NCBI GenBank assembly: GCA_028291365.1
Contig: JAQGIE010000218.1
Coordinates: 1-49,840 of the forward strand
Reading direction: 5' to 3'
DNA from: Rhodospirillales bacterium
GTDB lineage: Bacteria > Pseudomonadota > Alphaproteobacteria > BOG-932 > Roseiterribacteraceae
DNA length: 49,840 bases
The position numbers and the translations under genes were made by a program. This document shows positions 5,199-24,645 of this stretch, piece after piece (the first letter of the stretch is position 1; each line of letters starts with the position of its first letter). Under the pieces are notes generated by a model. It was not told the origin of the DNA. It did not search any database and saw only the letters and a program-made list of their open reading frames with translations.

Positions 5199-5753
5199 CT
5201 ACTTCTTCTTAGGCCGGAAGGCGACGAGGACGGCGGGATCGGTGTCGAGATACGGACCGCCGATCAGTTCCACGCAATACGGAATTGCCGGCATCACCGC
5301 TTCGAGACATTCGCGGATCGCGCGCGGGCTGCCGGGCAGATTGACCAGCAGCGCGCCGCCGTCGCTTTCGGCGGCACCCGCATAGCGGATTCCGGCCTCC
5401 TGCCGCGACAGGATCGCGGTCGGCACGCTTTTCAGCGACACGGCGCGCATCAACTCGCCGAAACCCGGCATCAGCTTGTGGCAAACGGCGAGCGTCGCTT
5501 CGACCGTCACGTCACGCCGCGCCGGTCCGGTGCCGCCAGTGGTGACGACGAGGCAGCAACGTTCGCGATCGACGAGCTCGATCAACGACGCTTCGATCGT
5601 CGCGCGTTCGTCCGGCACCAGCCGATAGACGATCTCGTGCGGCGTGGTCAGCCATTCGGCGAGGCAGTCGCGGATCGCCTGGCCGCTCGCATCATCGTAG
5701 ATCCCGGCATGGGCACGGTCCGACGCGGTCAGCACCCCGATCTTTGCCGTCAT
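5199..5753 (-). CDS. mogA: Molybdopterin adenylyltransferase MogA
   Basis: 184-residue enzyme that activates molybdopterin with ATP to give adenylylated molybdopterin, the substrate of MoeA. The sequence follows E. coli MogA closely: an N-terminal IGVLTASDRA, an Asp near 48 in LVPDER, the TTGGTGPARRD loop at 71-81 with catalytic-type Asp81, then PGFGELMR and NLPGSP. The ATG at 5753 overlaps the TGA of mobA in an ATGA, which shows translational coupling and rejects a longer start in the same frame. It is the last gene of the mobB-moeA-mobA-mogA operon. A second domain of the same fold is fused to MoaC at 20419-21312, so this step is duplicated in the window. Confidence 0.95.
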   Translation of the reverse strand: MTAKIGVLTASDRAHAGIYDDASGQAIRDCLAEWLTTPHEIVYRLVPDERATIEASLIELVDRERCCLVVTTGGTGPARRDVTVEATLAVCHKLMPGFGELMRAVSLKSVPTAILSRQEAGIRYAGAAESDGGALLVNLPGSPRAIRECLEAVMPAIPYCVELIGGPYLDTDPAVLVAFRPKKK

Positions 5754-6346
5754 GTGCGCAACATCGCTTCGACGCGCGCCAGATCCTCGGGCAGGTTGAC
5801 GTTGAAGAAGGGATCGATCCCCTCGGTCGCGAAAGCAACTTCGATGACGCGGTAGTCCTGCATGAATTCCTTGATCCTGCGCTTGCCGCCATGCAGCGCG
5901 CTTTCGAGATCGTCGGCGAGATAGGTCGGCCACAGCGAAGCGGTCGGATGCGGGCGTCCTTCCGACACCGCGACCGCAATCTCGGCGCCTTCCTGGTCCA
6001 CCGCTTCGACGAAGCCGGCGGCGAGATCGAGCGGCAAAAACGGCGTGTCGGTCGGCACCGACAGAAGCAGCGGCTGATTGCGTGACGCGGCCCAGCGCAG
6101 CCCGGCGAGCACGCCGGCGAGCGGACCCGGAAAACCTGCAACCGGATCGGCCACCACCGGCAGCCCGAATCCGGCAAAGCGCGACGGGTCGCCATTGGCG
6201 TTGAGCGCGAGCTGCGCCGCCTGCGGCGCGACGCGATCGATGACATGCTCGAGCAGCGTACGGCCGCCCAGCTGCAGCAGGCATTTGTCGCCGCCGCCCA
6301 TGCGCGTCGCCAGTCCGCCCGCCAACAAGACGCACGCCGGCTTCAT
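5750..6346 (-). CDS. mobA: Molybdenum cofactor guanylyltransferase MobA
   Basis: 198 residues. It transfers GMP from GTP to Mo-molybdopterin to form the guanine dinucleotide cofactor used by DMSO-reductase-family enzymes such as formate dehydrogenase. The N-terminal nucleotide-binding motif LLAGGLATRMGGGDK (7-21) and the metal-binding region VPTDTPFLP (near 96-104) are typical. Length matches the family. A GGAG box seven bases before the ATG supports the start. It sits between moeA (31 bp upstream) and mogA (4-base overlap). Its presence implies that this organism makes MGD-type molybdoenzymes, consistent with fdhD further right. Confidence 0.94.
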   Translation of the reverse strand: MKPACVLLAGGLATRMGGGDKCLLQLGGRTLLEHVIDRVAPQAAQLALNANGDPSRFAGFGLPVVADPVAGFPGPLAGVLAGLRWAASRNQPLLLSVPTDTPFLPLDLAAGFVEAVDQEGAEIAVAVSEGRPHPTASLWPTYLADDLESALHGGKRRIKEFMQDYRVIEVAFATEGIDPFFNVNLPEDLARVEAMLRT

Positions 6347-6377
6347 GTTGTTTCTCCGCGCGCAGCGCGCACGATTT

Positions 6378-7592
6378 TCATGTCAGTCCCAACGCTCGCC
6401 ACGACAAGAACTGCAACGACTCGCCAGCCGAGATTGTCTCGGTCGCTTCGGGCAATTCAATCACGCCATCGGTTTCGATCACCGAAGTCAGCATGCCGAC
6501 ACCGTCGCGCGGAAACCGCGTCGCCACCAGCGCGCCGTCGTCGCGGCGGGTCAGATTCACGCGCACGAATTCGCGCCGGCCGGGTTTCTTGCGCCCGTCA
6601 AAGCCCGCAATCACCGGAACGCGCCGCGGCGGCGGCGCGGCGAAGCCGGCCAGGCGCAGCAGCGCCGGCTGCACCACCAGCAGCAAGGTCAGCAAGGCCG
6701 ACACCGGATTGCCCGGCAGTCCGAAGCACGGCGTCTCGGCAACATGGCCGATCGCGATCGGACGTCCCGGCTTGATCGCCAGCGACCAGAAATCGAGCGC
6801 GCCCCGCGCTTCGATCGCGGCGCGCACATGATCCTCTTCGCCCACCGACATGCCGGCCGAGCTGACGATCGCATTGGCATGGGCGGCGGCGCGGACCAGC
6901 GACGTTTCGATCGCATCGCGCCGGTCGGGCAGGATGCCGAGATCGTCGACGGTGCAGCCGAACGCGGTCAGCGCCGCGCGCAACATTGGCCGGTTGGAAT
7001 CGTAGATGCGCCCGCTGCCGGCGGTCGCGCCGGGTTCGGCCAGTTCGTCGCCGTTCGAAAAAATTGCGACGACGAGCGGCGCGCGCGTTGCGACGCGGCC
7101 GATGCCCAGCGCCGCAAGCAGGCCCAGCTCGGCCGCACCGAGCCGGCGGCCCGCCCGCAGCACCACCTCGCCCGCGTGCATGTCTTCGCCGGCACGACGG
7201 CGATTGGCACCGAGCTTGAGCCCGCCGGGCAATTCGACCGCGCCGTCTTCTTCGCGCGCGTCTTCCTGCATCACCACCGTGTCGGCACCGTCGGGCATCA
7301 TCGCACCGGTGAAGATGCGCAGCGCCTCGCCCGGCGCGACCGTGCCGGCGAAAGGATGACCCGCGGCGGCGCGTCCGGCGCCGACGCGCAGCTTTCCGGG
7401 CAGGTCCTGATGGCGCACCGCCCAACCGTCGACGGCGGAATTGTCGGCGGGCGGCACCGAGACCGGTGCCGTGATGTCGGCCGCGAGCGCGCGGCCACGC
7501 GCCACGGTCAGCGGCACGGTCTCGATCGCGGCGGTCGGTGCGAACCGTTCCGCGATCATGTCCAGTGCTTCATCGAGCGTGAGCAACGCCAT
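6378..7592 (-). CDS. moeA: Molybdopterin molybdotransferase MoeA, copy 1
   Basis: 404-residue enzyme that inserts molybdate into adenylylated molybdopterin. The N-terminal region has PADNSAVDGWAV (substrate-site Asp and Ser), followed by TGAMMPDGADTVVMQED, the MoeA central domain with DSNRPML, and a C-terminal GLPGNPVSALLT. The loop normally reading T-S/T-G-G-V-S-V-G is SSAGMSVGEEDH here, a departure not shared by the second copy at 23431-24645. The ATG overlaps the TGA of mobB by one base. Whether the altered loop changes substrate choice is unknown. Other bacteria use distinct MoeA paralogues for different cofactor end products. Confidence 0.93.
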   Translation of the reverse strand: MALLTLDEALDMIAERFAPTAAIETVPLTVARGRALAADITAPVSVPPADNSAVDGWAVRHQDLPGKLRVGAGRAAAGHPFAGTVAPGEALRIFTGAMMPDGADTVVMQEDAREEDGAVELPGGLKLGANRRRAGEDMHAGEVVLRAGRRLGAAELGLLAALGIGRVATRAPLVVAIFSNGDELAEPGATAGSGRIYDSNRPMLRAALTAFGCTVDDLGILPDRRDAIETSLVRAAAHANAIVSSAGMSVGEEDHVRAAIEARGALDFWSLAIKPGRPIAIGHVAETPCFGLPGNPVSALLTLLLVVQPALLRLAGFAAPPPRRVPVIAGFDGRKKPGRREFVRVNLTRRDDGALVATRFPRDGVGMLTSVIETDGVIELPEATETISAGESLQFLSWRALGLT

Positions 7593-8095
7593 CAGCGCAC
7601 CGTAGCCAGCGGAAGCGCCAGGATGAAGTCGGCGATCCTTTGCTCGTCATTGAGGTCGAGCCACGGAACGCGCGCGCCCGGCGGCGGCGACGGGGCTGCG
7701 ACCGCGACGATGGTCGGAGCGTCGGGAGGCCGCATTGCTTTGCCGGTCGTCTCGCGCCAGATCTCGATCTTGGCGTGAGCGCCGCGCTTGAAACCTTCGA
7801 CCAGCACCAGATCGACTGGGGCCATGCGCTGCAGCAATTCGTCCAGGCTGGGTTCTTCGCCGCCGCGATGCTCGCGCATCAACGCCATGCGCGCGGCACT
7901 CGAGATCAGCACCTCGGTGGCGCCGGCCTCGCGATGGATCCAGCTATCCTTGCCCGGCTTGTCGACTTCGAACGTGTGATGCGCGTGCTTGATGGTCGAG
8001 ACGCGGACGCCACGGGCGATCAGCGCCGGGATCAGGCGCGCAATCAGATGCGTCTTGCCGCTGCCGCTCCAGCCGGCGAGGCCGATAAGTTTCAT
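7592..8095 (-). CDS. mobB: Molybdopterin-guanine dinucleotide biosynthesis GTPase MobB
   Basis: 167-residue P-loop protein that assists MobA in MGD formation. It begins MKLIGLAGWSGSGKTHL with a Walker A motif, then STIKHAHHTFEVDKPGKDS, which is the conserved MobB region around 35-55, and DLVLVEGFKRG as the Walker B and EGFK motif. The start at 8095 was chosen because the family begins directly at the P-loop strand; the frame stays open upstream but that part is anti-coding to the neighbouring gene. It begins 22 bp after the DUF2817 gene and overlaps moeA by one base, so it belongs to the same minus-strand operon. Confidence 0.94.
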   Translation of the reverse strand: MKLIGLAGWSGSGKTHLIARLIPALIARGVRVSTIKHAHHTFEVDKPGKDSWIHREAGATEVLISSAARMALMREHRGGEEPSLDELLQRMAPVDLVLVEGFKRGAHAKIEIWRETTGKAMRPPDAPTIVAVAAPSPPPGARVPWLDLNDEQRIADFILALPLATVR

Positions 8096-8117
8096 CGGCC
8101 GATGGTACGAGCCCCGG

Positions 8118-9203
8118 CTAGCCGCGCGAAAGCCCCGCCAGGGCCTGCCGCACGAGCAGGCGCGATTGGCCCAGCACCATGCCCTTCCAGCGCTCGTCTT
8201 CGGCGAAAAAACAGTCCTTGAGGCCGGTCTTGATGCGCCGTCCCATCGGCGACTCGGGATCGCCGCCGGACTCGTGCAGCCAGGCATCGGCGCGAACCGC
8301 GTCGAGCATCGCCTTCAAGGGCCCGACGCCGAACTCCAGGGCCATCGAGGTCACCTTGGCCCGCGGCAGCAGGCGCGCAGCGCCGGTGAGGCTGTCGCCG
8401 AGGACGCGCGCCGACGACGAATCCACACTGCCTGGCGCCGCCCCGCCGAGCCCGAACCAGAGGCCGGCGCGCACCGCGCCGGGATCGTCCGGCGCGTGCG
8501 GCACGATGCGTTCGCAATGGCCGTACGGTCCAAGCCCGGTATGGATGTCGAGCAGCGCGACGCTGCACGCATGCGACATCTGTTCGGCCAAGATCGAAGT
8601 GAGCGTCCGTCGCGACCAGCTCGGCGCGTAGCCGCCGAAGAAGACGCCGCGCGGATCCGACCATTGCCCGGCCGAGATCGCCGCCTGCAACGCGGCTTCG
8701 CCGTGCATGGCCGCATAGGCGCGCAGCTTCGCGGAACAAGCGGCCCACATCGTTTCGTCGCCCTCGCCGGCCGGGCATATCGCGTCGCGCAACGAGTCGT
8801 AGGCCGGGTTCGGCGGCAGCGGCGCGGCGAACTCGACCCAGTTTCGGTTGACGTCGATATTGTTCTCGTCGACCCGCCGGCACCAGGCGAAGCCGAACGG
8901 ATTGATCGCATGCACCAGCAGCATCGCCACATTGTCCGGCAGGCGTTGCGTCTCGCTGTCAGCGAGGAGCGCGACCTGCACGCCCGAACCGCAAAAACCC
9001 TCGACGCCGTGCGTGCCTGCGATCAGGACCAGCACGGCCTCGGCATCGGCCGGACCGAGCCAGGCGGTGTCGGTGGTGAGCGTGTCGCCGGCCGGGCTTT
9101 GGCGTGGATGCAGATACGACCGCATGGTCGCGCCCGCTTTTTGCGCCGAGCCGAGAAATTTGCGCCGCGCCTCGGCGTAGCTTGGTGCGAAACAATCATT
9201 CAT
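8118..9203 (-). CDS. DUF2817 family M14-like metallopeptidase
   Basis: 361 residues from the preferred ATG at 9203 (an in-frame ATG at 9218 touches the upstream terminator). The protein has the carboxypeptidase-like zinc pattern of DUF2817: GTHGVEGF with His65 and Glu68, NIDVNRNW near 115-122, DIHTGLG, and an ALEFGV segment that may supply the general base. The family is predicted to hydrolyse peptides or amides, and the substrate is unknown. It is first in line before mobB, separated by 22 bp, but a hairpin terminator lies just upstream, so it likely has its own promoter in or near the terminator region. A link to cofactor synthesis is only by position. Confidence 0.85.
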   Translation of the reverse strand: MNDCFAPSYAEARRKFLGSAQKAGATMRSYLHPRQSPAGDTLTTDTAWLGPADAEAVLVLIAGTHGVEGFCGSGVQVALLADSETQRLPDNVAMLLVHAINPFGFAWCRRVDENNIDVNRNWVEFAAPLPPNPAYDSLRDAICPAGEGDETMWAACSAKLRAYAAMHGEAALQAAISAGQWSDPRGVFFGGYAPSWSRRTLTSILAEQMSHACSVALLDIHTGLGPYGHCERIVPHAPDDPGAVRAGLWFGLGGAAPGSVDSSSARVLGDSLTGAARLLPRAKVTSMALEFGVGPLKAMLDAVRADAWLHESGGDPESPMGRRIKTGLKDCFFAEDERWKGMVLGQSRLLVRQALAGLSRG

Positions 9204-15381: not shown

Positions 15382-16533
15382 ATGCCACTGCCGATCTATC
15401 TCGACCACCACGCCACCACGCCGACCGATCGCCGCGTGCTCGCTGCGATGCGCCCGTTCTTTGAAGATCGTTTCGGCAACCCGCATTCGGTCGAGCACGT
15501 CTATGGCTGGGAGGCCGAGCTCGCCGTCGCCATGGCGCGCGGCGAAATCGCCATGCTGATCGCGGCGGAGCCGGCCGAAATCATTTTCACCTCGGGCGCG
15601 ACCGAGGCCAACAATCTCGCCATTCTCGGCGCGGTGCGTGCGGCGCCGGCGTCGCGCCGCCATTTGATCATCAGTGCCGTCGAGCATCCCTGCGTGCGCG
15701 AAGCCGCCGAACTGGCGACGCGTGAAGGCGCGCGCGTCACGACCTTGCCGGTGGACCGGACGGGGCGCGTCGAGCCGGACGCACTGCGCGCTGCGCTCGC
15801 CGACGACACGTTGCTGGTGTCGGTGATGGCCGCCAATCACGAGATCGGCACCATCCAGCCGCTCGCCGAACTGGGCGCGATCACGCGGGCGCATGGCGCG
15901 CTGTTCCATGTCGACGCGGCGCAGGCGCTGTCGACGCAGGCGATCGACGTGAACCAGATCCAGGCGGATCTGATGTCGCTGTCGGCGCACAAGATCTACG
16001 GTCCCAAAGGCGTCGGTGCGCTGTGGCGCCGCCGCGACGTCAAGCTCGTGCCGCTCTTCGGCGGCGGCGGACAGGAGCAAGGTTTGCGCCCGGGCACGTT
16101 GCCGGTGCCCTTGATCATCGGTTTCGCCACCGCCGCGACGATCGCACGCGAAGAACGAACCGAAGACGCGCAGCGTCTCGCCGGGCTGCGCGAACACTTG
16201 CTGCGCGCGTTGCAGAACGCCGCGCCCGATCTGCGCGTGCATGGCGGGATCGAACATCGCCTGCCGCACAATCTGAATTTCGCTTTTCCGGGCGTCGCGG
16301 CGCAGGACCTGCTGTGGCAGGTGCGCGAGCAGATCTCGCTGTCGTCAGGCTCGGCCTGCAGCAGCGCCACGGTCGAACCGTCGCGCGTGCTGCTGGCGTT
16401 GGGGCTGGACGAGACGCAGGCGCTTGAGGCGCTGCGCATCGGGCTCGGCCGCTTCACCTCCGAAGCCGACATCGACGCCGCGGCCGACGCGCTGCTTCAG
16501 GCGCATTCAGCGATCCGGTCGGCGCGCGCATAG
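15382..16533 (+). CDS. Cysteine desulfurase (IscS/NifS-like)
   Basis: 383-residue PLP enzyme that releases sulfur from cysteine as an enzyme persulfide. It starts MPLPIYLDHHATTPTDRRV, typical of the family. It has TSGATEANNLAI, the PLP-binding Lys in SLSAHKIYGPKG, and the persulfide-forming Cys in LSSGSACSSATVEPS. The long reading frame opening at 13921 is chance open frame across the MFS gene; the ATG at 15382 is the right start. It is not in an isc or suf cluster. Its 3' end overlaps fdhD by 37 bp in convergent orientation and the Mo-cofactor genes follow, so it likely feeds FdhD and the molybdopterin-synthase sulfur relay. Confidence 0.92.
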   Translation: MPLPIYLDHHATTPTDRRVLAAMRPFFEDRFGNPHSVEHVYGWEAELAVAMARGEIAMLIAAEPAEIIFTSGATEANNLAILGAVRAAPASRRHLIISAVEHPCVREAAELATREGARVTTLPVDRTGRVEPDALRAALADDTLLVSVMAANHEIGTIQPLAELGAITRAHGALFHVDAAQALSTQAIDVNQIQADLMSLSAHKIYGPKGVGALWRRRDVKLVPLFGGGGQEQGLRPGTLPVPLIIGFATAATIAREERTEDAQRLAGLREHLLRALQNAAPDLRVHGGIEHRLPHNLNFAFPGVAAQDLLWQVREQISLSSGSACSSATVEPSRVLLALGLDETQALEALRIGLGRFTSEADIDAAADALLQAHSAIRSARA

Positions 16534-17303
16534 GCCGTGTGGCGCTTGCCGCGCGCGAGCGCGACCAAGGTCAGGTTCGACGTTTCCGCCATGCGCACCG
16601 CGAGCGCCGTCGGCGCCGACACCGAAACGACGATGCCGATGCCGAACGAAACCGCCTTCTGCACGATCTCGTAGCTGCAGCGGCTGGTCATGACGAGAAA
16701 CCCGTCGCGCGGGTCGATCCTCTGCCGCGCCATCGACCCGATCAGCTTGTCGAGCGCGTTGTGCCGTCCGACGTCTTCGCGCACCAGCGCGATGGTCCCG
16801 TCGCGCCCGGCCCAAGCCGCGGCATGGAGCGCGCGCGCTTCGCGGTTGAGCGGTTGCAGCTCGGGCAGCGCGTCCATGGCGCGCCCGATCGCGGCCGGCG
16901 CGATGGTCGGCGCCTCGCCGACGTCGCGCGACGGACGCACCGCTTCGGCGAGGGAATCGACGCCGCACAGGCCGCAGCCGGTCCGGCCGGTCAGGTTGCG
17001 CCGCCGCGCCTTGAGCGCCTGGAAGCGCTCGGACGCGACGGTCAGTTCGACCTCGATCCCGGTTTCGCGCGGTGTTTCGACCAGGTCGTAGAGCTCGGCC
17101 GGGCTTTCGAGGATGCCCTCGGACAGGCTGAAGCCCAGCGCGAAATCGGCCAGATCCTGGGGGGTCGCCATCATCACGACGTGGCTGATCCCGTTATAGA
17201 CCAGCGCCACCGGCACCTCCTCGGCGATGGTCTCGACACGAGGTTCGACCGCGTCGCCGTCCCAGCGAAGGCTCGGAATCTGGACCAAAGATGCGTTGGC
17301 CAC
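16497..17303 (-). CDS. fdhD: Formate dehydrogenase sulfurtransferase FdhD
   Basis: 268 residues. FdhD carries sulfur from a cysteine desulfurase to the Mo-bisMGD cofactor of formate dehydrogenase. The sulfur-carrying pair Cys110 and Cys113 sits in GRTGCGLCGVDS. REDVGRHNALDKL and TSRCSYEIVQKA are conserved family blocks. The last 37 bp overlap the end of the convergent cysteine desulfurase gene. No formate dehydrogenase structural gene is in this window. A perfect 25-bp inverted repeat (17323-17417) separates it from the divergent moaD. Confidence 0.94.
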   Translation of the reverse strand: MANASLVQIPSLRWDGDAVEPRVETIAEEVPVALVYNGISHVVMMATPQDLADFALGFSLSEGILESPAELYDLVETPRETGIEVELTVASERFQALKARRRNLTGRTGCGLCGVDSLAEAVRPSRDVGEAPTIAPAAIGRAMDALPELQPLNREARALHAAAWAGRDGTIALVREDVGRHNALDKLIGSMARQRIDPRDGFLVMTSRCSYEIVQKAVSFGIGIVVSVSAPTALAVRMAETSNLTLVALARGKRHTAYARADRIAECA

Positions 17304-17507: not shown

Positions 17508-17750
17508 ATGCAAGCCATTCAGCTCCGCTATTTCGCCTTGCTCCGGGAGGAGCGCGGCCTGGCCGCCGAGGTGATCGAGACCACGGCCCGGACGCCGCGC
17601 GACCTCTATCAGGAGCTCGCCGGTCGCCATGGCTTCAGCCTGCCGGCCGAGCGCGTCGGGGTGGCAATCAACGAGTCTTTTGCGGGGATGGACCGCGAGC
17701 TCGCCGCCGACGACATCGTCGTCTTCATTCCGCCGGTGGCCGGGGGCTGA
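17508..17750 (+). CDS. moaD: Molybdopterin synthase small subunit MoaD
   Basis: 80-residue ubiquitin-like sulfur carrier. It ends in the diagnostic Gly-Gly (FIPPVAGG), where the thiocarboxylate forms. Length and the YFALLRE start match MoaD. The ATG at 17508 is chosen because the family starts three to six residues before RYFA. It is followed after one base by the MoaE-MoeB-rhodanese fusion, its expected partner and activator. Confidence 0.94.
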   Translation: MQAIQLRYFALLREERGLAAEVIETTARTPRDLYQELAGRHGFSLPAERVGVAINESFAGMDRELAADDIVVFIPPVAGG

Positions 17751-17751
17751 G

Positions 17752-19299
17752 ATGGCGCGGTTCACCATCGCGGCGACGCCGTTCGAGCACGAGCCGTTCG
17801 AGGCCGCCCTGCGCGACCATCGCGCCGGCGCCTACGCGACCTTCGAAGGCTGGGTGCGCGACCATAATGATGGCCGCAAAGTCGCACGGCTCGACTACGA
17901 GGCCTTCGAACCGCTCGCCATCGCCGAAGCCGAGCGGATCCTCGACGAAGCCCAGGCCAAATTCGCCATTCACGCGGCGCGCGCCGTACATCGCACCGGC
18001 ACCTTGCAGTTGGGCGACCGAGCCGTCTGGATCGGCGTCGCCGCCAGCCATCGCGACGAAGCCTTCCGCGCCTGCCGCTACATCATTGACGAGATCAAGG
18101 CGCGACTGCCGGTCTGGAAGAAAGAACATTACGCCGGTGGCGACGCGATCTGGGTGAATTGCCAGCACGCCGCGCCGTCGGAGCTTTCCTTCACGCCGAA
18201 GCTCGATGAGTCGCAACTCTATGCGCGCCAGTTGCGCCTGCCCGAGATCGGCGAGGCGGGCCAGGCGAAACTCAAAGACGCGCGCGTGCTGATCGTCGGC
18301 ATGGGCGGGTTGGGCAGTGCCGCAGCGCCGTCGCTCGCCGCCGCCGGCGTCGGCACGCTGGGGCTGGTCGAGCATGACGAGCTCGACGCATCGAACCTGC
18401 ATCGCCAGCTGCTCTACAGCGCCACCGACATCGGCAAGCCCAAGGCGCAGCTCGCGGCGGCACGCCTGTCGGCGCTCAATCCGTTCCTTTCGGTGCGCGT
18501 GCACAGCGACCGGCTGGGTCCCGCCAATTGCGCCGAGATCCTCGCCGGCTATGACCTGGTGCTCGACTGCACCGACAATTTCGCGACCAAATATCTGCTC
18601 AACGACGCTGCACATCTGCTGGGCGTGCCGGTCGTGCAGGCGAGCCTCTACCAATATGAGGGCCAGCTGCAGACGATCGACGCCGCATCCGACGGCGGTT
18701 GCCTGCGCTGCATCCATCCCGCCCCGCCGCCCGCGGGCGCGGTCGGCAATTGCGCCGAAGTCGGCGTGCTCGGCGTCGTGCCGCAACTGTTTGGCGCGCT
18801 GCAGGCGGCCGAAGCGCTGAAGCGGCTGCTCGGCATGCCGGGACAGCTGAGCGACGCGACCTTGCTGTTCGACCTTGCCACCTTCGAGACGCAGCGCTTC
18901 AAGCGGCCGCGCCGCCCTGACTGCGCCCTGTGCGGCGAGCAGCCGAGCATCACCAGCCTGACCGACGTGACGGTGGCGCAGGCGCCGCCGAGCGAGATCG
19001 AAGTCGACCTCGCGAGCATCGATCATGCGACCTTGCGCGGCGCGCGCTGGATCGATCTGCGCGAGCCGGCCGAACGGAGCGGCGCGGTACCGCCCGGCAC
19101 CTTGTCGCGCCCGTTCGGCGGGTTCGACGCCGACGCGCCGGGATTCGAGCCCGGCCCGCGCACCTTCCTGTTCTGCGCCGCCGGCCGTCGCTCGCTGCGC
19201 GCGGCGCAGAAACTGCGCGCGCGCGGCTGGAGCGACGTCTGGTCGGTACGCGGCGGCGCCGACGCGGTGCGCGCCATCCTGACGGAGACCGCCGAATGA
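17752..19299 (+). CDS. MoaE-MoeB-rhodanese fusion protein
   Basis: 515-residue three-domain protein. Residues 1-145 are the MoaE large subunit of molybdopterin synthase (FEGWVRDHNDG, SHRDEAF, active-site Lys pair at 123-124 in PVWKKE). Residues 155-395 are a MoeB/ThiF adenylyltransferase with VGMGGLGS, DASNLHRQ, DCTDN and zinc pairs Cys317/320 and Cys391/394. Residues 425-512 are a rhodanese domain with active-site Cys475 in CAAGRRS. MoeB-rhodanese proteins and separate MoaE are common. Joining all three would put MoaD adenylation, sulfur transfer and molybdopterin synthesis in one chain. All key residues are present. The gene starts one base after moaD and overlaps moaA in an ATGA. Confidence 0.93.
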   Translation: MARFTIAATPFEHEPFEAALRDHRAGAYATFEGWVRDHNDGRKVARLDYEAFEPLAIAEAERILDEAQAKFAIHAARAVHRTGTLQLGDRAVWIGVAASHRDEAFRACRYIIDEIKARLPVWKKEHYAGGDAIWVNCQHAAPSELSFTPKLDESQLYARQLRLPEIGEAGQAKLKDARVLIVGMGGLGSAAAPSLAAAGVGTLGLVEHDELDASNLHRQLLYSATDIGKPKAQLAAARLSALNPFLSVRVHSDRLGPANCAEILAGYDLVLDCTDNFATKYLLNDAAHLLGVPVVQASLYQYEGQLQTIDAASDGGCLRCIHPAPPPAGAVGNCAEVGVLGVVPQLFGALQAAEALKRLLGMPGQLSDATLLFDLATFETQRFKRPRRPDCALCGEQPSITSLTDVTVAQAPPSEIEVDLASIDHATLRGARWIDLREPAERSGAVPPGTLSRPFGGFDADAPGFEPGPRTFLFCAAGRRSLRAAQKLRARGWSDVWSVRGGADAVRAILTETAE

Positions 19300-20315
19300 C
19301 CGCGTCCGCACTCGCCCTCGCGCCGGAGCTTGCGCACGGCCTGGTCGACCGGTTCGGTCGCCGCCATACCTATCTGCGCATCTCGCTCACCGATCGCTGC
19401 AACCTGCGCTGCGGCTATTGCATGCCGCCCGAAGGCATTGCCTGGACGCCGCGCCCGTCGCTGCTCACCGAAGACGAGGTGGTACGGTTGGCGTCGGTAT
19501 TCGTGCATATGGGCATCGACAAGATCCGCCTCACCGGTGGCGAGCCGCTGGTGCGGCGCGACCTGGAATCGATCGCCTCGCGGATCGCCGCGCTGCCGGG
19601 TCTTTCGATCCTGGCGATGACCACCAACGGCATCTCGCTGGACCGCCGCGCGGCATCGCTGCGCGCGGCCGGTTTGAACACGCTCACGATCAGCCTCGAC
19701 ACGCTTCGCCGCGATCGGTTTCTCGAGATTACCAAGCGCGACAGTTTCGATGCGGTGATGGCGGGCATCGAAGCCTCGCTCGCGGCGGGATACGCGCCGG
19801 TCAAGATCAACATGGTCGTGATGCGCGGCGTCAATGACGACGAGATCGAGGATTTCGTCACCTGGGCGCAGGACCGCCCGCTGCAGATCCGCTTCATCGA
19901 ATACATGCCCTTCCCCGGCAACCACTGGCACAAGGCCGGCGTGGTGCCGTGGAGCGAGATTCGCGAGCGGCTCGAAACGCGTTGGCGCCTGGCGCCGATC
20001 GCGGTGCATCCGTCGGCGGTGGCGAAGGAATTCGCGCTGGTCGGGCATCAGGGCTCGGTCGGTTTCGTGACCTCGATGACCGACAGTTTCTGCGGCACCT
20101 GCAACCGGCTGCGCCTGACCTCGGACGGCAATCTCAAGACCTGCCTGTTCCACCCTGCCGAGCAATCGCTGCGCGATGCCTTGCGTGCCGGCGCCGACGA
20201 CGACGCGATCGAAACCCAGATCGCCTACGCCGTCGGCTTGAAGCAGGCAGCGCATGCGCCGATGGAAGAACTCACCCGCCTGGGCAATCGCGCCATGGTC
20301 GAGATCGGCGGATAG
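19296..20315 (+). CDS. moaA: GTP 3',8-cyclase MoaA
   Basis: 339-residue radical SAM enzyme that begins molybdopterin synthesis by rearranging GTP. The N-terminal cluster motif is CNLRCGYC (about 35-42), followed by LTGGEPLVRRD. The C-terminal second cluster uses CGTCNRLRLTSDGNLKTC. The chain ends in Gly-Gly (MVEIGG), needed for activity in known MoaA. Its ATG overlaps the TGA of the upstream fusion gene. It is followed by moaCB, whose product acts next, but a hairpin repeat of about 100 bp lies between them. Confidence 0.96.
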   Translation: MTASALALAPELAHGLVDRFGRRHTYLRISLTDRCNLRCGYCMPPEGIAWTPRPSLLTEDEVVRLASVFVHMGIDKIRLTGGEPLVRRDLESIASRIAALPGLSILAMTTNGISLDRRAASLRAAGLNTLTISLDTLRRDRFLEITKRDSFDAVMAGIEASLAAGYAPVKINMVVMRGVNDDEIEDFVTWAQDRPLQIRFIEYMPFPGNHWHKAGVVPWSEIRERLETRWRLAPIAVHPSAVAKEFALVGHQGSVGFVTSMTDSFCGTCNRLRLTSDGNLKTCLFHPAEQSLRDALRAGADDDAIETQIAYAVGLKQAAHAPMEELTRLGNRAMVEIGG

Positions 20316-20319
20316 ATTC

Positions 20320-20420
20320 ATTCCCCGCGAAGCTTGTCCCGGCCCCGAGCCGGGAGCGGGGATCCATGCAAAGGATCGCGCATTGGACGTACGAACTGGA
20401 TCCCCGCTTACGCGGGGAAT
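20320..20420. repeat. Paired CCCCGC hairpin repeat between moaA and moaCB
   Basis: The left unit (20320-20366) begins ATTCCCCGCG and ends GGGGATCCA, with a GC-rich insert in its loop. The right unit (20397-20420) is TGGATCCCCGC-TTA-GCGGGGAAT in inverted orientation. The last two bases of the right unit are the AT of the moaCB start codon, so the repeat runs directly into that gene. Confidence 0.78.
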
Positions 20421-21312
20421 GGCTGACGTCTCCGCCAAGATCACCACGCTGCGCACCGCCACGGCCAAGGCGGTGCTGCATGCCGACCCGGACACGATCC
20501 GCGCCGTCGTCGAAGGCCGCGTGCCCAAGGGCGATCCGTTGCCGGTCGCCAAGGTGGCCGCCATCCAGGCGGCCAAGGAAACACCGCGCGCGATTCCCTA
20601 CTGCCATCCGCTGCCGATCGACTGGATCGGGGTCGAGTTCGACGTGCGCGAACGCGAGATCGAGGCGCGCGTGTCGGTGCGCGTGATCCACAAGACCGGG
20701 GTCGAGATGGAAGCGCTGCACGGCGCCACCGTCGCGGTGCTGACGATCTACGACATGCTCAAGATGCTCGACGAGAAGATGTGGATCGACGGGGTCGAGC
20801 TCCTGTCCAAGAAAGGCGGCAAGAGCGACTTCGCGCGCGGCGACGGCATGCGCGCGGCGGTGATCACGCTGTCCGACCGGGGCCAGGCGCAGGACCGTTC
20901 GGGGCCGGTCATCGTTGAGCGGCTCGAAGCTGCCGGCGTCGGCGTCACCGCGCTCGAGACGATCGCCGACGAGCCGGCTCAGCTCGAAACGCTGATCCGC
21001 CAATTCGCCGACGAGCAGAAACTCGACCTCATCCTGACCACCGGTGGCACCGGTATCGGCCCGCGCGACACGACGCCCGAAACGACCCGGAAGCTGCTCG
21101 ACCGCGAGATCGTGGGGATCGGCGAAGCGATGCGTGCTTACGGCCAGGCCCGCCTGCCGGCCGCGATGCTGTCGCGCGGCGTCGCGGGCCTGCGCGGAAC
21201 GACCTTGATCGTCACGCTGCCGGGTTCGATCGGCGCCGTCAGCGACGCGATGGACGCGCTGCTGCCCGGTCTGCTGCACGCGATCGAAATCGCGCGCGGC
21301 GGCGATCACTGA
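20419..21312 (+). CDS. moaCB: Bifunctional MoaC-MoaB/MogA molybdenum cofactor protein
   Basis: 297 residues. Residues 1-145 are MoaC, which makes cyclic pyranopterin phosphate (IPYCHPLPID, KTGVEMEALHGATVA, DMLKMLDEKMW, LLSKKGGKSDF). Residues 146-297 are a MogA/MoaB adenylyltransferase domain (LSDRGQAQDRSGP, LTTGGTGIGPRDTTPE). Natural fusions of this kind start at M-x-DVS-K, as here, so the ATG at 20419 fits even though the frame is open upstream through the repeat. The only G-rich sequence upstream (GCGGGGA) is part of the repeat and touches the ATG, leaving no normal ribosome-site spacing. The MogA activity duplicates that of the gene at 5199-5753. The 3' end overlaps the convergent PIN gene by 7 bp. 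Confidence 0.93.
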   Translation: MADVSAKITTLRTATAKAVLHADPDTIRAVVEGRVPKGDPLPVAKVAAIQAAKETPRAIPYCHPLPIDWIGVEFDVREREIEARVSVRVIHKTGVEMEALHGATVAVLTIYDMLKMLDEKMWIDGVELLSKKGGKSDFARGDGMRAAVITLSDRGQAQDRSGPVIVERLEAAGVGVTALETIADEPAQLETLIRQFADEQKLDLILTTGGTGIGPRDTTPETTRKLLDREIVGIGEAMRAYGQARLPAAMLSRGVAGLRGTTLIVTLPGSIGAVSDAMDALLPGLLHAIEIARGGDH

Positions 21313-21827
21313 GGCAGCAGCGTCTCGACCTCACGGCTGAGGCGGTCGCCGGCGAACGGACGGACAATGCGTGCACCGAGGGGGTGCATGCCGGGCGCCA
21401 TGTCTTCGCTAATGACGAACGAGCAGCCGGCTTCGACCGCGGTCGCGATCAGCAGTGAATCCCAAACGCTGCCTTTGCCCGTCGATGCGGCTTCGAGGGC
21501 AGTACGTGTTGCCGTCGGGCCTTCGACACACATCCGGAACGTCTCGAGGAAACTGCGGGCCTTCACAGCCGCATCGGCGCGGCTCAACAGGTTCTTGCGA
21601 GATACCGCCGCAAAAAACTCGCGAACAGACTGCAAGGTCAGAAGGCAATCAGCCAACGCGGCACGCTGCAGCAACGAACTCGCCAAAGCCTGCCTGGCTG
21701 CAGACGCGGAATCGGCAGCGTAGATCAGCACGTTGGTGTCCAGCGTAAATCGCGCTGGTGGTCGCGTCAGATACGGCCTGCTGGGCGCTTCTTCGACGCC
21801 GCGCTGCGCGCCGCGCCTAGCGGTCAT
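21306..21827 (-). CDS. PIN-domain ribonuclease toxin (VapC-like)
   Basis: 173 residues. The PIN fold is recognised by acidic residues in FTLDTNVLIYAAD, SVREFFAAV, VWDSLLIATAVEAGC and VISEDM, which form the metal site of VapC-type RNases. About 25 residues precede the usual PIN start, so an internal start is possible. Its ATG overlaps the last 11 bases of the antitoxin gene, the normal arrangement for toxin-antitoxin pairs. Target RNA unknown. Confidence 0.86.
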   Translation of the reverse strand: MTARRGAQRGVEEAPSRPYLTRPPARFTLDTNVLIYAADSASAARQALASSLLQRAALADCLLTLQSVREFFAAVSRKNLLSRADAAVKARSFLETFRMCVEGPTATRTALEAASTGKGSVWDSLLIATAVEAGCSFVISEDMAPGMHPLGARIVRPFAGDRLSREVETLLPQ

Positions 21828-22074
21828 ACAAGGAGTCGCGATCGAAGTTCTCGGCGATCCCCAGCGGCTGCGGATCGTCGAGCCACGCTTTCATCCGCGC
21901 CAACGCTGCCTGCTGGGTGGGCGTCAGAATTCGTTGCCCCGGCATCATAGGCACCAGCCGCGCGACGGGCTCGCCGTGGCGGGTGATGACGATCTCGTCG
22001 CCGCTTTCCTCGACCTCGCGCACGCATTCGGTGAAACGCTGGTTCACCTCGCGCATCGTCAGCTGTTTCTGCAT
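21817..22074 (-). CDS. Phd/YefM-family antitoxin
   Basis: 85 residues. The N-terminal pattern MQKQLTMREVNQRFTECVREVEESGDEIVITRHGEPVARLVP is that of Phd/YefM DNA-binding antitoxins, with the TRHGEPVARL signature near 31-40. The C-terminal 40 residues would bind and neutralise the PIN toxin encoded by the overlapping downstream gene. The pair probably represses its own promoter. A frame one base off in the same place is a shadow. Confidence 0.88.
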   Translation of the reverse strand: MQKQLTMREVNQRFTECVREVEESGDEIVITRHGEPVARLVPMMPGQRILTPTQQAALARMKAWLDDPQPLGIAENFDRDSLYDR

Positions 22075-23430: not shown

Positions 23431-24645
23431 ATGTCGCCCAACCATCTTTCCGAAGCGCTGACCCTGATCGCTGCGCGCGTCGAGCCGGTCACGGAAATCG
23501 AGCACGTCGCCCTGACCGACGCGATCGGCCGCGCACTGGCGACCGACATTCGTGCCGCCCTGACCCTGCCGCCGTTCGACAATACCGGCGTCGACGGTTG
23601 GGCCTTCCGCCGCGGCGACGTCACGGCCGAGACGAATGCGCGGCTGCGCGTCGCCGGTGAGAGCGCCGCCGGCATTCCCTTTGCCGGCGAGCTGCCGGCC
23701 GGCGGCACGACGCGCATTTCGACCGGCGCGGTGATCCCGAACGGTGCCGATACGGTCGTGATGCAGGAAGATTGCGAGCGCGACGGCGACGCGATCGTGC
23801 TGCGCAGCGTGCCCAAGCTCGGCGCCCATATTCGCCGGGCCGGGGAAGACATTCGCGCCGGCGACGTCGCGCTTGCAGCGGGCCGTCGACTGGCGCCGCA
23901 GGATCTGGCGCTGCTTTTGTCGCTGGGCGAGCGCGACGCGCCGGTGCGGCGCAAGCTGCGCGTCGGCATCATTTCGACCGGCACCGAACTGCGCACGCTC
24001 GACGACGGCAAGGGCCCGCCGCTTTCGGGCCAGATCTTCGATTCCAACCGGCCGATGCTGGCCGCGATGCTGCGGCGCTGGCCGGTCGACATCGAAACCC
24101 TGCCGATCCTGCGCGACGATCGCGGCGCCACCGAGCGCGCGCTGCTCGAGGCGTCGGCGCGCTTCGACCTGCTGCTCACCACCGGCGGCGTGTCGGTCGG
24201 CGATCACGATCACGTGCGCCCCAGCGTCGAGGCGCTGGGCGAAATCCTGTTCTGGCGTCTGTCCATCCGGCCGGGGCGGCCGGTGCTGCTCGGCCGTGTC
24301 GGCAACGCGCATGTGCTGGGCCTGCCGGGAAATCCGGTCTCGGTCGCGGTGATTTTCGCGCTGCTCGGCCGCGCCGTGCTGAGCGCGCTGGCGGGGTTCG
24401 ATGCGCCGCGTTTCGTGCGCCTGCCGGTCGCGCTCGACAGCGCCCATACCAAGCCGGCGCGGCTCAACGAATTCGTTCGCGCGCGCATCGAGAATGGCCG
24501 CGCCGTTCTGTATCGCGCGCAAGGCTCGAACCTGCTGACCTCGCTCGCGTGGAGCGATGGTCTATGCGACCTGCCGGCCGGCCGCGACGCCTTCGCGCCC
24601 GGCGACGTGGTCGACTTCCTGCCGTTCAGCGGGTTGTTCGACTGA
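23431..24645 (+). CDS. moeA: Molybdopterin molybdotransferase MoeA, copy 2
   Basis: 404 residues, the same length as the first copy but clearly diverged. It has PPFDNTGVDGWAF, STGAVIPNGADTVVMQED, DSNRPML, the canonical loop TTGGVSVGDHDHV (altered in copy 1) and GLPGNPVSVAV. It inserts molybdate into adenylylated molybdopterin. It is followed after two bases by a TSUP permease gene. Having one copy in the mob operon and another here suggests specialisation for different cofactor end products or enzymes, which is inference. Confidence 0.93.
   Translation: MSPNHLSEALTLIAARVEPVTEIEHVALTDAIGRALATDIRAALTLPPFDNTGVDGWAFRRGDVTAETNARLRVAGESAAGIPFAGELPAGGTTRISTGAVIPNGADTVVMQEDCERDGDAIVLRSVPKLGAHIRRAGEDIRAGDVALAAGRRLAPQDLALLLSLGERDAPVRRKLRVGIISTGTELRTLDDGKGPPLSGQIFDSNRPMLAAMLRRWPVDIETLPILRDDRGATERALLEASARFDLLLTTGGVSVGDHDHVRPSVEALGEILFWRLSIRPGRPVLLGRVGNAHVLGLPGNPVSVAVIFALLGRAVLSALAGFDAPRFVRLPVALDSAHTKPARLNEFVRARIENGRAVLYRAQGSNLLTSLAWSDGLCDLPAGRDAFAPGDVVDFLPFSGLFD

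Follow-up and report, generated by a model that had tools for sequence, protein, structure and literature searches.

A conserved MoaE-MoeB-rhodanese chain encoded beside moaD and predicted to act in molybdopterin synthesis

In E. coli, MoaD leaves molybdopterin synthase at each turnover, is re-adenylated by MoeB and re-sulfurated, and then returns to the synthase. Gene fusions have been published for MoaD-MoaE, MoaD-MoeB, MoaD-MoeBR, MoaC-MoaE and MoaC-MoaB, as have MoeB-rhodanese proteins (PMC1779556, PMC11237513, PMC2948915, PMC3227635, PMC4326299), so that the two types named in the first-pass annotation of the present locus, MoaD-MoaE and MoeB-rhodanese, are both documented. That annotation knew of no characterized chain joining MoaE, MoeB and rhodanese. 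No description of such a fusion was found in the searchable literature, outside which most subscription papers lie, and the portion consulted of a 2018 survey of molybdenum utilization with domain fusions (PMC6147048) does not mention it. The chain is not unique, however, as about 60 homologues were found; it represents a conserved, apparently undescribed domain architecture whose expected chemistry is that of the textbook pathway.

The window analyzed here is a 49,840-nt stretch, read on the forward strand, of contig JAQGIE010000218.1 from a Rhodospirillales bacterium (GCA_028291365.1). A single open frame of 515 amino acids on the plus strand extends from the ATG at 17752 to the end of its stop codon at 19299, and encodes MoaE, followed by an adenylyltransferase of the ThiF/MoeB type and, at the C-terminus, a rhodanese. 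The MoaE domain comprises residues 1-137 (17752-18162), as delimited by PF02391 and by residue mapping over 61 fused chains; the Pfam match covers residues 8-118 with an E-value of 2.8e-36 and 124.6 bits against a cut-off of 23.4. It is followed by a linker of residues 138-156 (18163-18219), the core of which (139-148) has a pLDDT below 50 and is disordered, and by the adenylyltransferase domain of residues 157-405 (18220-18966), which matches PF00899 (ThiF) at residues 157-391 (E 1.5e-72) and resembles MoeB, ThiF and Uba4 in Foldseek.

The rhodanese domain occupies residues of about 416-508 (18997-19275), as judged from the family profile and the fold. Its loop, CAAGRRS, has the catalytic Cys in the CxxGxR form of MoeBR and begins with Cys475 (codon TGC, 19174-19176), which is predicted from the sequence and the conservation of its column to carry the persulfide. 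The single-sequence Pfam score of this domain is 20.7 bits, just under the cut-off of 22.2. The profile of 34 relatives matches PDB rhodaneses, including GlpE and the rhodanese of Uba4, with E-values down to 2.6e-22; the Pfam domain is detected in 33 of 46 fused relatives; and the domain modelled alone (pLDDT 86) has rhodanese-type structures as its top Foldseek matches. Because Pfam for MoaE and ThiF and the profile and predicted fold for the rhodanese agree, all three domains are real, which confirms the proposed three-domain identity of the chain with an intact Cys475.

Immediately upstream, on the same strand, moaD (17508-17750) encodes an 80-residue sulfur carrier of the ThiS/MoaD fold (PF02597, 50.5 bits) that ends in PPVAGG, a free C-terminal Gly-Gly; against TIGR01682 it scores 53 bits, under the cut-off of 66. 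The one-base gap that had been noted between moaD and the fusion is present, and it is ordinary: an identical gap separates moaD and moaE in E. coli K-12 (819293/819295).

Relatives were collected by scanning a single genome for each species, from which the best 80 loci were taken together with same-family loci and the locus G334. Among these, MoaE and MoeB lie in a single open frame at 60 loci besides the window, a number that includes two loci of identical sequence (G334 and L106) and one, L103, with an in-frame stop inside MoeB. In this otherwise intact Krumholzibacteriota fusion the TAG lies at 6636, between LHR and TLY, and the locus is either a broken copy or a sequence error. Intact copies of the fusion are found in G001, of the same genus (86%), in three further members of the family (55-58%) and, within the class, in a distant family (42-43%). 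The approximately 55 loci beyond the genus and family relatives span nine phylum-level groups: Pseudomonadota (Rhodanobacteraceae, Lysobacteraceae, Steroidobacteraceae, Nevskiaceae, Acetobacteraceae and others), Bdellovibrionota, Hydrogenedentota, Krumholzibacteriota, Zixiibacteriota, Kiritimatiellota, Lentisphaerota, Armatimonadota and Melainabacteria. Many of the hosts are metagenome bins and several are cultured strains, with a complete genome for Dyella jiangningensis SBZ 3-12. The fusion was found in 2 of 399 genomes in the phylum sample, in 13 of 118 genomes of the Dyella jiangningensis family, where two further matches are without the MoaE part, and, among 385 genomes of the class, as six full-length copies and one truncated by the end of its contig.

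This conservation bears on the concern, raised at the outset, that a sequencing or assembly frameshift had artificially joined two genes. The same full-length chain is intact in about 60 independent genomes, the finished genome CP007444 among them, and third codon positions dominate the differences between the window and G001 in all three domains, that is, across the entire frame. Nothing was found in favour of an artefact, and since the intact chain is conserved in relatives, we regard the frameshift as refuted, its residual probability being negligible. No relative of the fusion was found in viral contigs, on which ground a viral origin was rejected; in plasmid records it was absent at useful similarity, the sole record covering more than 80% of the query carrying separate annotated genes.

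The catalytic residues examined are all retained in the window chain. In its MoaE part, R36, H100, R101, K116 and K123 correspond to R39, H103, R104, K119 and K126 of E. coli MoaE, and in its MoeB part, R218, K231 and D275 correspond to R73, K86 and D130 of E. coli MoeB; the importance of these residues we take to be established for the E. coli enzymes. The catalytic Lys pair (K119 and K126) is present in 61 of 61 fused chains, the equivalents of R39, H103 and R104 in all 60 that have a residue there, and those of the three MoeB residues wherever the column is filled among the 61. The rhodanese Cys column contains Cys in every fused chain that has the column (57/57). The MoeB domain also has R159, C334 and the zinc Cys C317/C320/C391/C394, and thus combines the ThiF fold and adenylation residues with two CxxC zinc pairs, as in MoeB and MoeBR; in relatives the second pair varies at its last Cys, frequently having His or a gap there.

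The whole-chain model has a mean pLDDT of 91.9 and shows three confident domains around the disordered stretch. With a pTM of 0.63 and a flexible linker, the domains are therefore reliable, and their relative placement is not. The best structural match in Foldseek is Uba4 (6yub, an E1-rhodanese), followed by MoeB of the MoeB-MoaD complex and then ThiF.

Taken singly, the parts of the chain resemble ordinary members of their families. The MoeB part is divergent by profile score, reaching 165 bits against a cut-off of 377 for TIGR02355 (MoeB) and 318 against 449 for its best NCBIfam match, NF006444 (the PRK08762 MoeB model), which spans residues 127-407 and leaves the MoaE domain outside. As these values lie under the equivalog cut-offs, the MoeB part is classed as MoeB-like by its fold and residues. 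MoeB-type NCBIfam models are matched by all 46 chains scanned, and among these members no NCBIfam model covering the whole three-domain chain was found, so that any single-domain name hides one or two functions.

The MoaE of the fusion is the only one found genome-wide. Two ThiF proteins exceed the cut-off, the other of which adjoins genes that we take, from reading their translations, to be ThiO and ThiG; likewise, of the two ThiS/MoaD proteins found, one is encoded next to the fusion and the other within the thiamine cluster. The fusion therefore supplies the genome's sole MoaE and, apart from the thiamine cluster, its sole E1-like enzyme, which argues that it very probably serves molybdopterin synthesis. 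The previously proposed link to molybdopterin synthesis is supported by this result; the free C-terminus of MoaD is supported as well. Of 22 other genomes with the fusion, 21 have no MoaE besides the fused one, and the exception has one weak extra match. The neighbours in 68 related loci include moaD (65), moaA (58), moaC (55) and moeA (51).

In the window, the operon continues on the plus strand with moaA (19296-20315; TIGR02666, 379 bits), which overlaps the fusion stop in ATGA, and with a moaC-moaB fusion (20419-21312; PRK03604, above cut-off), a second gene fusion within the same moa operon. A toxin-antitoxin-like module, a PIN-domain and Phd/YefM pair (21306-22074, minus strand), lies between this operon and moeA. 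The window has two MoeA genes, one at 23431-24645 and one at 6378-7592; the latter belongs to a second Moco cluster on the minus strand (5199-8287), together with a MoCF/MogA-like domain and MobB (7592-8287).

Dual roles are described for MoeZR and Uba4 homologues (PMC3227635), and the E1-rhodanese part could by analogy act mainly on another ubiquitin-like sulfur carrier, in tRNA thiolation or in cysteine synthesis as with MoeZR/CysO. We consider this quite improbable here, as the ThiS/MoaD-family proteins found in the genome are MoaD and ThiS with no third, both CxxC pairs typical of MoeB/MoeBR rather than MoeZ are present, and the operon content is Moco only.

The reading that we prefer, and hold to be very likely, is that the chain is a trifunctional enzyme of molybdopterin synthesis that arose from neighbouring moaE and moeBR genes, its reactions being those predicted from its domains. 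The ThiF/MoeB domain would adenylate the C-terminal Gly of the separately encoded MoaD, the rhodanese would use a persulfide on Cys475 to turn the MoaD acyl-adenylate into a thiocarboxylate, and the MoaE domain, acting as the large molybdopterin synthase subunit, would convert cPMP to molybdopterin using two loaded MoaD molecules. The loading of MoaD by a rhodanese has precedent in MoeBR and human MOCS3 (PMC3227635). Because a separate gene encodes MoaD, the protein has a free Gly-Gly end and no cleavage is required.

The first-pass annotation had placed these activities in a single assembly. The presence of the three domains on one chain stands; any benefit of their sharing it is presumed, and channelling has the same status. 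A scheme in which a dimer held by MoaE and MoeB passes MoaD from the adenylation/persulfide site to the MoaE pocket without cytosolic release, and in which the His-rich, often CxxC-preceded linker of most relatives binds metal and adds metal handling or control, appears to us rather unlikely.

The suggestion that a cysteine desulfurase about 1 kb away feeds the rhodanese is weaker than claimed. The gene at 15382-16533 (plus strand) encodes an IscS/NifS-type protein with an SSGSACSSA loop, whose best matches are under equivalog cut-offs, and the genome has further related aminotransferase-V proteins. A desulfurase occurs in one of the 68 neighbourhoods, that of the same genus, and was rejected as a conserved partner; fdhD occurs in four. 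In the window, fdhD (16497-17303, minus strand; TIGR00129, above cut-off), the divergent neighbour, sits between the desulfurase and moaD, and because of this arrangement the desulfurase may equally serve FdhD. It is a possible sulfur source for the fusion.

In sister lineages, moaE and moeBR are adjacent and unfused at twelve loci, and in those inspected moaE has the same tail and ends in a stop codon ahead of the moeBR start. At three loci (L079 at 5887, L095 at 5379 and L100 at 6519), a single in-frame stop with an ATG within a few bases divides the frame into moaE and moeBR. A quick MoeB-domain tree shows at least four changes between fused and unfused states, with one adjacent-gene locus nested in a fused group; its deep branches are weakly supported, and fused forms are over-represented because the search used a fused query, so the tree does not set the direction, fusion or fission. 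The adjacent genes in close relatives indicate a fused, or re-split, moaD-moaE-moeBR operon rather than new chemistry. The simplest reading is that the last two genes of such an operon have been fusing and splitting, and the present gene would have originated within it, either through fusion alone or through reversible fusion and fission.

The linker contains at least four His in 44 of 61 fused chains (L069, L078, L083 and others), amounting to 22% His against 2.8% elsewhere, and is often preceded by Cys-x-x-Cys (NCERC). The unfused MoaE tails of sister lineages retain this segment, and the window and G001, of the same genus, have lost it. That it binds metal is a guess; a literature search for histidine-rich MoaE found nothing.

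The linker also bears on whether the fused gene yields separate products, through cleavage of the chain or an internally started MoeBR, such that ordinary MoaE and MoeBR are in use. It is disordered by pLDDT and variable, identical parts are split by a stop in relatives, an in-frame ATG, GTG or TTG lies within it in 37 of 61 fused genes, and MoaX, another Moco fusion, requires cleavage (PMC4326299). However, the linkers of the window and G001 are without such codons, the fused state is retained in deep lineages, and there is no functional need for cleavage because the MoaD end is free. The chain could be cleaved or work as independent modules, and we give separate products only a minor chance beside the intact trifunctional enzyme.

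In the cultured soil bacteria Dyella, Rhodanobacter and Frateuria, the fusion likewise provides the only MoaE, and its description fills an annotation gap in NCBIfam. As a predicted natural chain of three activities, it offers a direct test of MoaD handover inside a single complex.

Compared with known systems, the chain shares with MoeBR/MoeZR and MOCS3/Uba4 the ThiF-rhodanese order and the catalytic residues, and with MoeBR both CxxC pairs, whereas it alone adds an N-terminal MoaE; the PRK08762/NF006444 model likewise describes its MoeB part without the MoaE domain. MoaX, the MoaD-MoaE fusion of M. tuberculosis, Deinococcus and Thermoproteales, has the inclusion of MoaE in common with it, but buries the MoaD Gly-Gly and needs cleavage (PMC4326299), while in the window MoaD is free and the partner of MoaE is MoeB-rhodanese. 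In the MoaD-MoeB and MoaD-MoeBR fusions of Thaumarchaeota, Euryarchaeota and others (PMC11237513), MoeB(R) is also fused to a Moco neighbour; those fusions carry MoaD, whereas the fusion described here carries MoaE instead.
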